A DNA stretch of 27,864 nucleotides, taken from IMG/VR virus record IMGVR_UViG_3300022752_000307, positions 1 to 27,864 of that record; one strand, written 5' to 3'. Shown piece by piece: positions 585 to 26,899 of this stretch. Position 1 is the stretch's first letter. Each line of letters begins with the position of its first letter. The notes below the pieces were generated by a model. The model searched no databases and was not told where the DNA came from. It saw only the letters and a program-made list of their open reading frames with translations. This stretch comes from a virus. A program made the translations under genes and the position numbers.

Positions 585-593
585 ACCCGTCGA

Positions 594-604
594 GGCAATC
601 TAGC
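594..604 (+). promoter_or_regulatory. Start-associated element, variant copy
   Basis: GGCAATCTAGC lies in the gap between the 171-residue protein and the small membrane protein, 26 nt before the GTG at 631. It is a two-mismatch variant of the recurring GGCAACYTAGA element. Confidence 0.4.
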
Positions 605-3119: not shown

Positions 3120-4058
3120 TTAGCGTGTTGCGTAGGCCAAAGGCGGATTAATTATGGTGTTTTTCTCATCCCGATCTAAAGAATGTGTAAATGCGAGGCT
3201 GCGAACAGCTCGACGCAGCTTGTTGATTGCCCTGCGCTGAACGTCAGTGGCATGTTGGCGGCTACAGCCAGTGCTTTTAGCCCAGGCTTTAAGAGTCATT
3301 TTGGCCGCTCCATCTATTTCATAGTAATGGCACATCAGCAACCGCTCCTCGTCATCTAAAAATTTAAGTGCGTGTTTAAGCTGATCTAGTTCGTAGGAGT
3401 AGATAGGGTTATCTTTAGTTGTGTTTGGGTCTGGTAATAGATCCACTAAAGCAGTTCCATCATCTTGAAATGTTTTATCTAAGCTGGCTACCCGCTGATT
3501 GCGATTAATTAATAGCGCTAGTTCTGCCTCAGGTATTTCAATATCAGCGGCCAGTTCTTTGCGTGTTGGTGATCTACCCAGCTCATGGACTAGGCGATGA
3601 GTTGCCGCCTCTAGCCTGGGAAGCCGATCCGCAATTGCGTATGGAATGCGAATGTCCCGATCCATTTGATTAAGAGCGCGAGAGATCGCTTGCCGTATCC
3701 ACCAGAATGAATAAGTGGAGAATTTGTAGCCACGGGTAGGATCAAATTTCTCAACTGCCCGCACCAGCCCTAAACACCCCTCCTGAATAAGATCCAGGGC
3801 TGATAATTTGCGAGCAACACGTTCGTATTTCAACGCCAATCGTATTACCAGGCGCAAGTTTGCATTAATCATGCGCTCTTTTGCCCTGTTACCAACCCGC
3901 ACAGTGCGCTTCTCAATTGGTGTGAGCGAACGGGTTTTGGCTTCTTCTATAAGCGGCACGGAGGCTTGAACCTGTCGGCCCAAAATTAACTCCTCTTCAG
4001 GTGTTAGCAGGGGGTGGCGAACGCACTCCCTGAGGAACGCATCTAAGTTGCTAGTCAT
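3120..4058 (-). CDS. Phage-encoded sigma70-family factor, group 2-like
   Basis: 312 residues. There is no region 1.1, as in group 2 factors. Region 1.2 is at 5-30 (HPLLTPEEELILGRQV), region 2 at 58-128 with LDLIQEGCLGLVRAVEKFD and FSTYSFWWIRQAISRAL, region 3 at about 140-215, and region 4 at about 225-290. It would direct RNA polymerase to a promoter set. Regions 2.1-2.3 are well conserved, so core binding and melting should be intact. Region 4.2 (KAWAKSTGCSRQHATDVQRR) departs from the usual SRERVRQIE helix, and the region 2.4/3.0 stretch IRIPYAIADRL is also unusual, so promoter choice probably differs from the host's. It is fourth in a leftward operon, 12 nt after the zinc-ribbon gene. A captured host factor is the likely origin. 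Confidence 0.92.
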   Translation of the reverse strand: MTSNLDAFLRECVRHPLLTPEEELILGRQVQASVPLIEEAKTRSLTPIEKRTVRVGNRAKERMINANLRLVIRLALKYERVARKLSALDLIQEGCLGLVRAVEKFDPTRGYKFSTYSFWWIRQAISRALNQMDRDIRIPYAIADRLPRLEAATHRLVHELGRSPTRKELAADIEIPEAELALLINRNQRVASLDKTFQDDGTALVDLLPDPNTTKDNPIYSYELDQLKHALKFLDDEERLLMCHYYEIDGAAKMTLKAWAKSTGCSRQHATDVQRRAINKLRRAVRSLAFTHSLDRDEKNTIINPPLAYATR

Positions 4059-14426: not shown

Positions 14427-14692
14427 TGATTATCGACCGCCAGCTAAGCATTTGTGAGAAATGCGGTGAGAGAAAGGCGCAGGTCGTTGAGACCCGCGCC
14501 CGAGTTGGGGGAGGAGTACGACGTCGAAAGCTGTGTAAGCTGTGCGGCCACCGATTTAGCACTATTGAGTTAAGTGTGGAGGAACATGACGCGATGTTTA
14601 AATCGCACACGATACTGAAAACCGTATTATCAGCGATATATGAGGGCGGGCAATCTAGTGAAACAATAGATACCGGTGCAACTCATGGATGA
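14426..14692 (+). CDS. NrdR-type zinc-ribbon protein, second copy
   Basis: 88 residues from GTG 14426, overlapping the previous stop by one base; GGTGGAGGTG at 14411-14420 is the ribosome site, which decides this start over an in-frame upstream ATG. Cys10-x2-Cys13 (CEKCGERKAQV) and RRRKLCKLCGHRFSTIE with Cys37-x2-Cys40 make a ribbon very close to that of NrdR. About 45 residues follow with no ATP-cone. Probably a DNA-binding regulator. It may derive from duplication with its neighbour, though the sequences outside the ribbon differ. Confidence 0.7.
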   Translation: MIIDRQLSICEKCGERKAQVVETRARVGGGVRRRKLCKLCGHRFSTIELSVEEHDAMFKSHTILKTVLSAIYEGGQSSETIDTGATHG

Positions 14693-15128
14693 GGAGCAGA
14701 CAGCTCAAAACCAAGAGTGTGCTTTAGCGAATTACGGTTCCATCACCCCAGTTAGTGAAGATTTAAGCGAGGGTGAAGTTGGTCGTAAGCGTCGATTAAG
14801 TTTCAACAGCATTGAGATTGCCCAACAGGTGTGTTATGTGCAGGATCTACTAGCAGTTGGTGTACGACCGAATTTGATCCGCCAGCAATGTGCGGAGAAG
14901 TGGGGTTTAACGAGTAAGACGGCTGAGCATCGGATCAGCGCTGCCCGGCGAATGATGATCGCCGACATAAATGTTATGGATCGAGCGGAGAAGGTTAGTG
15001 AGTTAGTGGAGAAGCTTGAGACTGTAATACAGCAAGCGATTTCAAATAATATGGGCAGCAATGCGATTGGCGCGATGCGGCTCCAGGCGGAATTATTGCA
15101 ACTAACGAACAAGAATAAGCTGACCTAA
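14685..15128 (+). CDS. Terminase small subunit-like protein
   Basis: 147 residues from ATG 14685; a GTG at 14676 is the alternative. Residues about 45-90 form a helix-turn-helix region (VGVRPNLIRQQCAEKWGL, then KTAEHRISAARRMM) and the rest is helical, as in DNA-recognising small terminases or related phage HTH proteins. It would bind the packaging site and help load the large terminase at 18286, from which it is separated by the ArdA operon. The tandem repeats begin at its stop codon. A different HTH regulator is possible. Confidence 0.6.
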   Translation: MDEEQTAQNQECALANYGSITPVSEDLSEGEVGRKRRLSFNSIEIAQQVCYVQDLLAVGVRPNLIRQQCAEKWGLTSKTAEHRISAARRMMIADINVMDRAEKVSELVEKLETVIQQAISNNMGSNAIGAMRLQAELLQLTNKNKLT

Positions 15129-15195
15129 AAATCGCATTCATTTAAGCGCAAAAATCGCATTCATTTAGGCGCAAAAATCGCATTCATTTAGGGGT
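15127..15195. repeat. Three tandem 23-bp direct repeats
   Basis: Units at 15127-15149, 15150-15172 and 15173-15195. Each begins AAAAATCGCATTCATTTA; the tails are AGCGC, GGCGC and GGGGT. Units 1 and 2 differ at one position. The period is close to two helical turns, as in iterons or activator sites. They lie immediately upstream of a TTGACA box and could also be the packaging (pac/cos) recognition site of the adjacent small terminase. Confidence 0.85.
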
Positions 15196-22919: not shown

Positions 22920-24011
22920 ATGTCATTAAGCAACGTCGGCGGCACATTTCTATCCGCCATGATCACCCGGCCCGAATTTGCGGGCTATCTTGCAGAAAGA
23001 ATTTTCAACGAATCGCGTTTTGTCCAAAGCGGAGTTGTAGCACGCAACAGCGCCTTGGATGTACGTGCAGGCGGCACTCGCATTCGAGTACCTGAGTTCG
23101 ACCCAATCGCGCCAACCATCGAGCGCATCGACTCCAGCAGCACTTGGGGCACCAGCGGCGCTGGCTACCTAACCCCCCAAGCGCTGTCAACAGACGAGCA
23201 AATCATGACCATCTTGCGCCGTGGCTTTGCCTACAGCGTGGATGACGTATCCAAGTTAGGTAGTGGAGTTGCCGATCCTCTAGGTCACGTTCGCAACCAG
23301 CTTGCAGCTGCTGTGAACAAAGCCAAGACAGCAACACTAATGGCCCAGCTAGGAGGTTTGTTCGGCAACATCTCCGCCAACGGTGTATTAGGTGCTAACA
23401 CCATCAACAAGACCGGCACAACAACTGCAGCCGCAGCGAACTATCTGACTGCGGGTAATGTTGTAGCCGCCAAGCAACTGCTTGGTGAGCGCGGCAGCGA
23501 GTTAAGCACAATCATCATGCACAGCGCGGTTGCTGCTTACCTAGAGGAGCTAGGCTACCTACAGGTACAGAGCAGCGGCGGCAGCGTATATGCAGGCGGC
23601 GGTGTAGGTTCCGGTTTAGGCTCCGGCTTAGTCGGACGTTTTGCGGGATTGAATGTAATCGTTGACGATCAAGTCGGCGTAATTGCAGGCGGCACCGCAA
23701 CCCACCTAAACAAGTACCAGGTGTACTTGTGCGGCTCCGGCGTAATTGGCGAGGGCATCCAACAAGATATCCGCGTTGAGTACGACCGCAACAAGCTGAG
23801 CTTCCAGGACACCCTGATCGTTGACTACCACATGGGTTACCACGTCTACGGCACCCGCTGGGCAGCCAATGGCGACAACCCTACAGATGCCTCCACCAGC
23901 GGCAACTTAGGCGCCACCAGCTCCTACGCTCTTTGCTACACAACCGCAAAGAACATACCGCTAGTGCGTCTGTTGGTAAACACCCCCTACGACACAGGCG
24001 TTTACGCCTAA
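22920..24011 (+). CDS. Major capsid protein
   Basis: 363 residues. N-terminal helix LAERIFNESRFVQSGVVARN, then a beta-rich region (VRAGGTRIRVPEFDPI), a spine-helix-like segment GHVRNQLAAAVNKAKTATLM, a glycine-rich loop (SSGGSVYAGGGVGSGLGSGL, about 220-239), and a C-terminal P-domain-like stretch with GLNVIVDDQVGV and HMGYHVYGTRWA. This fits the HK97-fold coat proteins of tailed phages lacking a separate N-terminal delta domain. It forms the icosahedral shell. It lies directly after the scaffold gene, and a strong terminator follows, as expected for the most highly made virion protein. Confidence 0.88.
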   Translation: MSLSNVGGTFLSAMITRPEFAGYLAERIFNESRFVQSGVVARNSALDVRAGGTRIRVPEFDPIAPTIERIDSSSTWGTSGAGYLTPQALSTDEQIMTILRRGFAYSVDDVSKLGSGVADPLGHVRNQLAAAVNKAKTATLMAQLGGLFGNISANGVLGANTINKTGTTTAAAANYLTAGNVVAAKQLLGERGSELSTIIMHSAVAAYLEELGYLQVQSSGGSVYAGGGVGSGLGSGLVGRFAGLNVIVDDQVGVIAGGTATHLNKYQVYLCGSGVIGEGIQQDIRVEYDRNKLSFQDTLIVDYHMGYHVYGTRWAANGDNPTDASTSGNLGATSSYALCYTTAKNIPLVRLLVNTPYDTGVYA

Positions 24012-24032: not shown

Positions 24033-24060
24033 AAACCCCCTGTAACAAGGGGGTTTTTTT
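24033..24060 (+). terminator. Rho-independent terminator after the capsid gene
   Basis: AAACCCCC (24033-24040), short loop TGTAACAA, GGGGG (24049-24053) and seven T (24054-24060). It should cut most rightward transcription, so genes from 24381 on need their own promoter or antitermination. Confidence 0.9.
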
Positions 24061-24072
24061 CATGCCCCGCTA

Positions 24073-24312
24073 CTAATGCCCCACCCCAGCTTCCTGCCGT
24101 TCAAACACAGCAACAGTATCAGCAGTCATCTTGTAGCTCTGCAACAAAACCTGATTAACCAAACCAGCACTTATGCGCAACTGCATTGCAATATCGGGCA
24201 CTGAAACACCAAGCCTCTGCAGGCGACGAATTTCCGTCAGCACCAGCTCCCACTGTCTAATTTCACCCCCAGCAGCTTTGTCGGCCTGAGCAGATCTGCG
24301 AACGTTTGACAT
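24073..24312 (-). CDS. Small HTH protein, minus-strand gene among head-tail genes
   Basis: 79 residues from ATG 24312. Residues about 20-58 contain a clear helix-turn-helix shape: IRRLQRLGVSVPDIAMQL followed by RISAGLVNQVLLQSYK. It probably binds DNA. It runs against the surrounding structural genes, the arrangement of an inserted single-gene cassette (moron). It may be expressed from a prophage. A start-associated element on its own strand lies 19 nt upstream. It could repress late genes, for example by binding the divergent gap next to it, but there is no direct evidence. Confidence 0.65.
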   Translation of the reverse strand: MSNVRRSAQADKAAGGEIRQWELVLTEIRRLQRLGVSVPDIAMQLRISAGLVNQVLLQSYKMTADTVAVFERQEAGVGH

Positions 24313-24331
24313 TTAATGCTTTGGCACTTAC

Positions 24332-24342
24332 TCAAGGTTGCC
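24332..24342 (-). promoter_or_regulatory. Start-associated element, minus-strand copy
   Basis: The minus strand reads GGCAACCTTGA, one mismatch from GGCAACCTAGA, 19 nt before the HTH gene's ATG. It diverges from the plus-strand copy at 24351. Confidence 0.45.
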
Positions 24343-24350
24343 GGAGTAAG

Positions 24351-24361
24351 GGAAACCTAGT
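24351..24361 (+). promoter_or_regulatory. Start-associated element, plus-strand copy
   Basis: GGAAACCTAGT, 19 nt before the ATG at 24381 and downstream of the strong terminator at 24033-24060, so this gap must hold the next rightward start site. Confidence 0.5.
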
Positions 24362-24380
24362 CGTAAGCAAGTGTGATTCC

Positions 24381-24908
24381 ATGGCCGCGACTATCAACGC
24401 AACACCAGGAGCAGCTGATGCCAACAGCTACATAACACTTGCCGAGGCTCAAGTCTTAGCGGACTCAACTATAGATTCCGTTGAATGGTACACGGCAACT
24501 ACCGATGTCAAGACCAGAGCATTAATCACAGCCACCCGCACCCTCGATCTTCTTAAGTATGTCGGCACCCGTAGCACCAGCACCCAAGCGCTCGCCTGGC
24601 CGAGAAAAGACTACGCAACCAGTGAAAAAACCTACACCGACACGGAAATACCCAAAGAAATAAAGCAGGCCCAGTTTGAGGTTGCGCTTTCCCTAATCCA
24701 AAACTCAGTAAGCGTTGGTAGCGGCTCAACGTCAATCATCCCCGGCATCAACAATGCCGACCTACAGCGGGTCAAGCTAGACGTAATCGAGATCGAGTGG
24801 AAGCGTCAACTAGGCAGCACCAGCCCAGCCAAGGTTGTAAGCCCCGGCCTGCTAAACGATCTGGTTTTAAACACCCCAGGCTCAACCATTGCAGTAGTCC
24901 GCAGCTAA
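24381..24908 (+). CDS. Head-tail connector, DnaT-like type
   Basis: 175 residues from ATG 24381; the longer frame from 24306 would overlap the divergent HTH gene and lacks family resemblance in its first 25 residues. The pattern ATPGAADANSYITLAEAQVL, then KTRALITATRTLDLL, GTRSTSTQALAWPRKDY and EIKQAQFEVALSLIQN matches the phage proteins annotated as DnaT-like ssDNA-binding, which in virion operons act as head-completion connectors (gp6/gp15-like helical bundles). Position right after the capsid gene supports a connector. A true DNA-binding role is unlikely. Confidence 0.72.
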   Translation: MAATINATPGAADANSYITLAEAQVLADSTIDSVEWYTATTDVKTRALITATRTLDLLKYVGTRSTSTQALAWPRKDYATSEKTYTDTEIPKEIKQAQFEVALSLIQNSVSVGSGSTSIIPGINNADLQRVKLDVIEIEWKRQLGSTSPAKVVSPGLLNDLVLNTPGSTIAVVRS

Positions 24909-24965
24909 CCCAACCTAAATAGGTCAAAGCATATTAGATTAGGTACGAACGTTCAATGCTTTGTT

Positions 24966-25499
24966 GTGGCCGCCCCAGCTACGAATCCACGAAAGCGACC
25001 GCGCACGGGCTACCTAGCTGAGCCTTTAAGCGTTGAAGAGCAGAGGAAGGTGGGCAGGATGTACCGGGAGCACCAAGGCATATTGCGTTTAATGGGCAGG
25101 AAAATGTTTAAGAAGTACCCCTTTGTTGCAACTGACGACTTATTCAGCTGTTGCGACATTGCATTTATTAAGACGTGCCGAGCCTGGCAACCAGCCAAAG
25201 GCACCTTCAGCACACTGCTAACAGTGTTTTGCGAGGGTGAGATTTTGCATTGGATACGCGATAACAACTGGCTAGTAACAGCCCCCGGCAACGTGCGGCG
25301 TTTAGGCCAACGCGCCCGACGACTACTAGATGCCAGCACACCAATATGCGAAGTACTCAAGGAGCTGGATTTAACAGAATCAGCATTAAAACTTGCACTT
25401 GTCGCAACACAACCAACAGATCATGACATTCGAGGTTTCGAGCTACACATTTGCCCCCGGCCAACACCATGGGACGCACTATTAAGCGAAGAAGAATAA
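24966..25499 (+). CDS. Sigma70-like protein lacking region 4
   Basis: 177 residues from GTG 24966. Residues about 30-102 align with sigma70 region 2: GILRLMGRKMFKKYPFVATD, then DLFSCCDIAFIKTCRAWQ and KGTFSTLLTVFCEGEILHWI (the FSTY.R.EI pattern of regions 2.2-2.3). Residues 103-148 resemble region 3 (LVTAPGNVRRLGQRARRLL, then CEVLKELDLTESALKLAL). After that only about 30 residues remain, so the -35-binding region 4 is missing. It could bind core RNA polymerase as a reduced sigma that reads only a -10-like element, or as an anti-host factor. The first 20 residues are basic. It lies between connector and tail tube genes, an odd place for a regulator. Confidence 0.72.
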   Translation: MAAPATNPRKRPRTGYLAEPLSVEEQRKVGRMYREHQGILRLMGRKMFKKYPFVATDDLFSCCDIAFIKTCRAWQPAKGTFSTLLTVFCEGEILHWIRDNNWLVTAPGNVRRLGQRARRLLDASTPICEVLKELDLTESALKLALVATQPTDHDIRGFELHICPRPTPWDALLSEEE

Positions 25500-25500
25500 T

Positions 25501-26032: not shown

Positions 26033-26458
26033 TTAAGGTTTGTTTATCTTATTCCAACGTTCCACTAGGAACGGCAGCAGGGGTTTATTGTTTAACGCAG
26101 GTGTCATCCAGTCCCTCGGGGGCGCAGTGTAAGAGGTTTCCTTACCGCTTCCCACCTCATACCCTCCTTTAAACACGTCGCTAGCGTAGGGAGCGCTATA
26201 ACTAATAAAAATTGTATTCCCCCTGACCGACTCAGTTTGCGACTGAATAAGCTCGCCAGTATCATAAATATCCCGCTTCCCAGCTTTAATAAAAGCACCA
26301 CTTTTTCGTTTAGTATCAACTGGATAAAAGAATTGCGCAGTAAGCATTTCCTCCTGCGCCTGCGCTCCAATATAAACTGAATAATCCTTCATAATGCGAG
26401 GTCCATTTGCAAGTATGGCCTTAGCATTCCACTTAGTAATTTTAAGGCGACCCTTCAT
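26033..26458 (-). CDS. HK97 gp10-like tail/connector protein on the minus strand
   Basis: 141 residues from ATG 26458, three bases after the upstream stop; an in-frame upstream start at 26476 would overlap that gene. RDIYDTGELIQSQTESVRGN then IFISYSAPYASDVFKGGYEV and APPRDWMTPAL match the family of tail-completion or neck proteins (HK97 gp10-like), which contain a D-T-G-L/Y-A..V pattern and end near P.R.W..PAL. It is on the opposite strand to the other virion genes and converges on the tail tube gene with only 11 nt between stops. Confidence 0.72.
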   Translation of the reverse strand: MKGRLKITKWNAKAILANGPRIMKDYSVYIGAQAQEEMLTAQFFYPVDTKRKSGAFIKAGKRDIYDTGELIQSQTESVRGNTIFISYSAPYASDVFKGGYEVGSGKETSYTAPPRDWMTPALNNKPLLPFLVERWNKINKP

Positions 26459-26460
26459 TA

Positions 26461-26850
26461 CTAATCCCGCGCCCAAAGCGTAATACGAGTGCCTAAGATT
26501 GCAGATAACCGTTCGCCCAAAGCGCCAGTATTCCCATACCCCAGCCGTGCTCTAACCACTTCAAATTGAACAGCCGAAGCAGTACCAAAAGTCAGCGTAC
26601 CTTCAGTACCGACTCCGATGCGATCATCAAGTTCAAGTGGTTTTATGACATAACCCTCAAATATAGTGGCATCGACGTTTATGCCGGGGTAGACCTGCGG
26701 ATCTACAGACACAGCTTTTAGGAAAGCATCGTAAGCCAAGCTTTTTACACTGGGGCTGACATTGCCAGTTGCAGGGTCGGTAACAGTCCCAACCCCAGCA
26801 ACCTGAAACGTCACTACAGCATTTTTAACAGAGGAGAGAGCACTAGCCAT
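26461..26850 (-). CDS. Head-tail connector or stopper-like protein on the minus strand
   Basis: 129 residues from ATG 26850 (TTG 26856 would add two residues). AVVTFQVAGVGTVTDPATGN then DAFLKAVSVDPQVYPGIN, FEGYVIKPLELDDRIGVGTE and LTFGTASAVQFEVVRARLGY describe a small beta-barrel protein like phage head-closure (stopper) proteins. In most phages this gene lies before the gp10-like gene, as it does here when read leftward. So the pair keeps its usual order but is inverted relative to its neighbours. Confidence 0.62.
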   Translation of the reverse strand: MASALSSVKNAVVTFQVAGVGTVTDPATGNVSPSVKSLAYDAFLKAVSVDPQVYPGINVDATIFEGYVIKPLELDDRIGVGTEGTLTFGTASAVQFEVVRARLGYGNTGALGERLSAILGTRITLWARD

Positions 26851-26856
26851 ACACAA

Positions 26857-26872
26857 GGTTGCCGAGGCAACC
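26857..26872. repeat. Inverted repeat in divergent gap
   Basis: GGTTGCC, GA, GGCAACC: a perfect 7-bp inverted repeat in the 49-nt gap between the minus-strand connector gene and the tape measure gene. Its right arm begins the plus-strand start-associated element. The left arm gives a minus-strand GGCAACCTTGT reading toward the connector gene. Confidence 0.75.
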
Positions 26873-26876
26873 TAGA
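26866..26876 (+). promoter_or_regulatory. Start-associated element, exact copy
   Basis: GGCAACCTAGA lies 23 nt before the ATG at 26900. The gene upstream on this side is on the other strand, so this gap is a likely site for a rightward start. Confidence 0.5.
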
Positions 26877-26899
26877 GCTATAGAAGCTTGTAATCAGAT

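Follow-up and report, generated by a model that had tools for sequence, protein, structure and literature searches.

The open reading frame at 24966-25499 of the window (the whole stretch of viral DNA analysed here, 27,864 nucleotides in length) encodes, by sequence profiles and structural modelling, a reduced sigma-70-family protein composed of regions 2 and 3. With a probability of about 0.78, this short sigma functions as a phage late sigma factor that reads a promoter consisting of a -10 box only, in a manner resembling the action of T4 gp55, and derives from a SigF-like factor. The candidate promoter is a short, GC-rich element found at a preferred distance before the structural and lysis genes of this phage and its relatives. 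The reading frame was confirmed at its position, begins with a GTG start codon and specifies 177 amino acids, and the window carries a further sigma gene of conventional composition:

24966..25499, plus strand: reduced sigma gene; N-terminal tail 1-21, region 2 about 22-105, region 3 about 106-148, conserved C-terminal tail 149-177, no region 4
3120..4058, minus strand: second sigma gene, full-length and group 2-like, with regions 1.2, 2, 3 and 4

Searches with profiles and with a predicted structure agree on the identity of the short protein. In a single-sequence profile search, the window protein matched PHROG_351, 'RNA polymerase sigma factor', with E=2.9e-8, and its top NCBIfam match was SigF (PRK07408; 5.5e-5, at 22.9 bits versus a cut-off of 261). 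The window protein matched the Pfam Sigma70_r2 model below threshold (0.0034), and 6/6 members of the first family alignment matched it, the best at 2.7e-5, while the family profile built from an alignment of 37 sequences matched S. aureus SigB at 1.6e-5. The AlphaFold model (mean pLDDT 79, pTM 0.61) found sigma factors or sigma-polymerase complexes as its matches among the 50 solved structures listed. Residues 22-100 of the model align with residues 369-446 of E. coli sigma70 at 2.3 Å over 77 residues with a Z of 8.8, and although a Z near 8 may reflect an arrangement common to helical folds, the structures matched here are sigma factors and the sequence profiles concur. The initial annotation had named two outcomes that would count against a sigma, a better match to some other helical virion family and the lack of a sigma2 fold; the sigma profiles (PHROG_351, PRK07408 and SigB) beat any virion family, and the superposition on sigma70 places the sigma2 fold in the model.

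Region 3 is less tightly placed. The short-sigma profile aligns with the phage's own full-length sigma over columns 42-183, through regions 2 and 3, and then stops; the structural matches extend as far as residue 505 of sigma70 with an rmsd near 9 Å, so that the placement of region 3 relative to region 2 is loose. That both regions are recognisable, as proposed at the outset, is upheld, with the labels of the supporting motifs corrected by alignment to the full sigma: FSTLLTVFCEGEILHWI corresponds to region 2.3-2.4 and APGNVRRL to the junction of regions 2.4 and 3.0. For region 4, the short sigma gave no profile match and the structure ends at the equivalent of region 3. Because the chain ends, at residue 177, about 29 residues past region 3, there is no room for a region 4, a region that to our knowledge is present in all sigma-70 groups except reduced forms. 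Profiles, model, structural alignment and chain length together bear out the description of a sigma70-like protein without region 4 in a head-tail cluster.

Scans of viral contigs returned 157 loci bearing the short sigma gene, with 79 distinct proteins among them. Identity to the window protein ranges over 54-88% in the first 80 loci, and the proteins of a more divergent clade show 45-53% identity to the nearest of several family queries. The gene order of head-tail adaptor Ad1, short sigma, major tail protein and two minus-strand neck genes is kept in nearly all loci that show both neighbours. Within the protein, regions 2.2-2.3 are conserved, region 2.3 most of all, as is the C-terminal tail with its hydrophobic and acidic end. 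No close isolate of this family is present in the phage collection searched. Cellular genomes yielded no carrier of the gene in a first scan and, in a second, only one 3.3-kb contig (L208) binned as Rhodoferax, which is probably misplaced virus DNA. The host is probably a cyanobacterium, as suggested by sequence similarity to cyanosiphophages.

The element that is proposed to be read by this protein emerged from the noncoding DNA, where words around CCTAGG and AACCTAG are enriched. A de novo motif search of the upstream sequences of 320 ORFs returned GG[AC]AACCTAGG in more than 40% of the ORFs (log-likelihood 597 versus 58 for shuffled sequences), in the orientation of the gene and with a peak 20-40 nt before the start. 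Its consensus, on the strand of its gene, is GG[AC]AA[CT][CT]T[AC]GG, and separate unseeded searches recovered it again in subclades. Scanned with a weight matrix trained partly on the window itself, the window contains 19 sites above 11 bits versus 0-5 in shuffled copies, and most of these 19 immediately precede a gene; they include the following:

593..604, plus strand: element AGGCAATCTAGC, 38 nt before ORF 631-873 near the lysis gene; 13.1 bits
4075..4086, minus strand: element AGGAAACCTCGG, 28 nt before the full-length sigma gene, with a similar site in contig G005; 17.0 bits
14648..14659, plus strand: element GGGCAATCTAGT, 28 nt before ORF 14676-15128 in the replication half, a weaker candidate; 13.9 bits
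19656..19667, plus strand: element AGGAAACCTAGG, 33 nt before the portal gene; 17.5 bits
22126..22137, plus strand: element CGGCAACTTAGA, 31 nt before the scaffold gene; 14.5 bits
24332..24343, minus strand: element CGGCAACCTTGA, before the minus-strand HTH gene 24073-24312; 14.3 bits
24350..24361, plus strand: element GGGAAACCTAGT, 31 nt before the ATG at 24381 of the head-tail adaptor Ad1; 15.3 bits
25500..25511, plus strand: element TGGCAACCTAGA, just past the sigma stop codon and 30 nt before the major tail protein gene; 13.8 bits
26853..26864, minus strand: element CGGCAACCTTGT, back to back with the element at 26865 and facing the minus-strand neck gene 26461-26850; 14.6 bits
26865..26876, plus strand: element AGGCAACCTAGA, 33 nt before the start, at 26898, of the probable tape measure gene; 15.1 bits

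The copies at 24350, before Ad1, and at 25500, before the major tail gene, confirm that two copies of the element stand beside the short sigma gene. The back-to-back elements at 26853-26876, with diverging genes on either side, form a AGGTTGCC-GGCAACCT inverted repeat. A hairpin at the element was rejected as a general feature because it was noticed mainly at such back-to-back pairs.

A set of 226 dereplicated placed sites defines the element more closely. Most sites lie 28-36 nt from the start codon, the A at position 4 and the T at position 8 are invariant and four apart, and an A is favoured 6-8 nt past this T. Upstream of the element, information amounts to at most 0.084 bit per position and neither TAGGC nor TTGACA is enriched; because nothing is conserved upstream in these sites, the element is regarded as having no -35 box. 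The pentamer GCGTT at -47 was considered as a hidden -35 and, as the best positional 5-mer, stands above rotated controls, yet it occurs at 11 of the 226 sites and is far too rare for that role.

The bases A-11 and T-7 are the key -10 bases of sigma-70 promoters, and the GG of the element, followed by an A and a T four apart, has the look of a -10 box read by a SigF-type sigma. A mapped SigF promoter of Synechocystis carries TAGGC at -32 and GGTAA at -12 (PMC2758279). The GGMAA of the element is in register with this GGTAA, and the TAGGC box at -32 is absent from the 226 sites, an absence that fits the short sigma because its region 4 is missing as well. Counting against a promoter is the GC-rich composition of the element, given that this region must melt.

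The distribution of the element follows gene function. In contigs of 35-47 kb, most sites fall among the packaging, structural and lysis genes, and hardly any occur in the replication part; in contig G007, the first 16 kb, comprising the replication half, contain no element and all sites lie downstream of there. The window has two weaker elements in its replication half and one element before the full sigma gene, and shows no strong site before its MCP, TerL or short sigma genes. A different signal precedes the short sigma gene:

24914..24942, plus strand: upstream region of the short sigma gene, with AGGT and a -10-like box of TAGATT type and without the late element

The short sigma's own gene is preceded by a TANACT box in place of the element in the window's clade, and by the element in the divergent clade. 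In the window, this gene would probably be driven by a host-type promoter, distinct from that of the late genes.

Element and short sigma gene occur together. At least one correctly placed element is found in 146/147 short-sigma loci of at least 5 kb, which overlap in part and are not a count of independent genomes, at a density of 3.9 per 10 kb; in L128, the one locus that departs from this, the tail gene is preceded by a copy that has diverged slightly. Nine distinct contigs that lack the short sigma gene (L139, L153, L200-L206), which are partial and represent only about three lineages, contain no placed element. Of these, L139 offers one weak candidate if TTG starts are allowed, and L153 has neither gene nor element, though its Ad1, tail, neck and tape measure genes are kept in order. 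The gene is missing from L178 only because that stretch ends after Ad1. It is possible that the genomes of the gene-less contigs encode a sigma elsewhere, and because the loci are related, the pattern comes down to a small number of independent events, perhaps three losses or absences. Among isolates, S-CBS2 and S-CRES1 encode a related SigF-like sigma and carry a GGnAnnCTA motif at the same place before genes, and KBS-S-2A and S-H1, which have homologous portal genes, showed neither a detectable SigF-like sigma nor the motif. P-SS2 is intermediate, with a related sigma and a weak motif signal, and a de novo motif search in P-SS2, KBS-S-2A and S-H1 returned nothing comparable to the element.

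From this co-occurrence, the concentration on late genes, the lack of a -35 and the register with the SigF -12 box, we infer that sigma and element belong to one late system, as the initial annotation had suggested. Most late genes carry a matching -10-type signal without a -35, and this signal and the short sigma probably form a single late-gene switch. Region 2 of the short sigma would dock on the host RNA polymerase at its beta-prime coiled coil, and regions 2.3-3.0 would make the predicted contacts with DNA, reading GG(-14,-13) M(-12) A(-11) A(-10) Y(-9) C(-8) T(-7) M(-6) G G. Transcripts would then begin about 7 nt past the T of the element, at an A-rich spot, leaving a 5' leader of about 10-20 nt before each structural or lysis gene, and such element-driven transcription would presumably take place late in infection.

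Other explanations assign the element or the protein a different role. The element might be a promoter for host SigF or for the phage's full-length sigma, the short protein being a modulator that competes for or modifies the polymerase. Cyanobacterial SigF does read GGTAA at -12, and related full sigmas are present in 6/6 contigs over 31 kb in one set and in 7/7 of at least 39 kb in another; yet KBS-S-2A has an RpoD-type sigma and no element, the SigF -32 box has no counterpart at the sites, and where the short gene is absent the element is absent too, all of which makes this explanation unlikely. Strand specificity and a fairly constant distance before start codons would also suit a signal that acts in the RNA, as a leader or in translation, and does not depend on the short sigma. 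Such a role is very unlikely for an element that has no Shine-Dalgarno-like core, varies by more than 10 nt in its spacing to the start, is confined to late genes, co-occurs with the sigma gene and has GG and A-N3-T arranged as in a SigF-type -10. It is more improbable again that the short gene, which sits among virion genes, is a decayed and functionless sigma gene or encodes a virion protein derived from one, since its frame is kept open across the family, 49 positions are invariant among 37 sequences, most strongly in region 2.3, and the flanking neck genes are less conserved than the short sigma.

Compatible with the preferred reading of a late sigma for -10-only promoters is a requirement for a separate region 4 substitute at the beta flap, like T4 gp33 or Bacillus RsoA. 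The SigO/RsoA type is a two-part sigma with a separate region 4-like partner gene, T4 gp55 pairs with gp33 at the flap, and the conserved C-terminal tail of the short sigma could bind a partner; such a requirement is conceivable here but rather doubtful, and no substitute was identified among the neighbouring HTH gene and the region 4-like matches examined. The former (24073-24312, minus strand), which occurs in phages with one MCP type and lies between MCP and Ad1 on the strand opposite to the module, encodes a small HTH protein; it was rejected as a partner in that it has a homologue in L153, which is devoid of the short sigma, and none detected in many sigma-bearing loci. Two weak region 4 matches, in G007 and G002, belong to a 63-aa membrane HTH protein and were likewise set aside. 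Upstream of TerL, L218 (520-711, minus strand) and L219 (1121-1312, plus strand) encode a 63-aa protein that combines a single membrane helix with a resolvase-like HTH. Across 14 related contigs, the best region 4 match always lies within the frame of the full sigma. An extra region 4-like match above the family cut-off was seen in one contig only, within a 209-aa frame (G021:C1:22958-23065, minus strand). A bacterial-type beta clamp was not found in 14 contigs.

The closest known relatives of the short sigma are homologous SigF-like group 3 sigmas of the cyanosiphophages P-SS2 (ORF 003), S-CBS2 and S-CRES1-3, with hhalign E values of 4e-10 to S-CRES1 gp20 and 6e-11 to P-SS2 ORF 003. Regions 2-3 are alike, a group 2-type second sigma is present in the same genome, and no region 4 profile match was obtained for the SigF-like sigma of S-CRES1 or P-SS2. 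The cyanosiphophage sigmas are longer (213-244 aa versus 177 aa), the gene in S-CRES1 and P-SS2 comes after TerL and not, as here, between Ad1 and the major tail gene, and the motif is looser than the element described here and weak in P-SS2. The P-SS2 paper describes the pairing of a group 2 with a group 3 sigma and, in those of its sections considered here, mentions neither a missing region 4 nor a GGnAnnCTA-type motif (PMC2784084). No publication on a region 4-less cyanophage sigma or on the element was found in the openly accessible literature searched. Cyanobacterial SigF resembles the short sigma as its best NCBIfam match and in the register of the -12 box, but possesses the region 4 and the -32 TAGGC box that the phage system lacks.

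For a -35-free phage sigma, the textbook case is late transcription in T4. The T4 late promoters consist of a single short box, which lies upstream of the start by about one helical turn, and gp55 is a small protein with a sigma2-equivalent domain that works with gp33 at the beta flap and binds the sliding clamp through its end (PMC2988020). The short sigma is likewise a small protein with a sigma2 domain and candidate one-box late promoters, and the hydrophobic and acidic end of its C-terminal tail recalls that of gp55, a lead only. Unlike gp55, it has a region 3 and is probably related to SigF, its box is GGMAAYCTMGG and not a TATA box, and sequence homology between the two proteins is not detectable (hhalign probability 0.6%). 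Tentatively, and at somewhat less than even odds, the system may represent a lineage unrelated to T4 in which a SigF-like sigma became a region 4-free late factor that reads, by regions 2 and 3 alone and with no gp33-like coactivator, a GC-rich -10-only promoter of 11 bp and through it drives strand-alternating late genes in the head-tail module. A second, apparently independent -35-free case, derived from a SigF-like factor and with a clearly defined promoter and more than 200 natural sites, would make the question of what replaces region 4 testable in a small system, and the element supplies a promoter model with which late genes can be annotated in this family, found in many viral contigs.

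The head-tail module displays further features of its own. The MCP gene at 22920-24011 and its counterparts in related loci fall into at least two very different types (47-93% versus 26-32% identity) with the gene order unchanged, and directly 3' of the major capsid gene, at 24033-24056 on the plus strand, lies a hairpin with a T run that resembles a terminator. The neck or tail-completion genes at 26033-26476 and 26461-26850 are on the minus strand within this plus-strand module and are kept in nearly all loci that reach them. A 23-nt repeat, AAAAATCGCATTCATTTAAGCGC, is present in three tandem copies at 15127-15195 of the window. The Ad1 ORF, 24306-24908, matches Pfam DnaT_2 at 2.8e-28 as well as the PHROG head-tail adaptor Ad1, the Pfam name being probably misleading, and its true start is probably the ATG at 24381 rather than the TTG at 24306.
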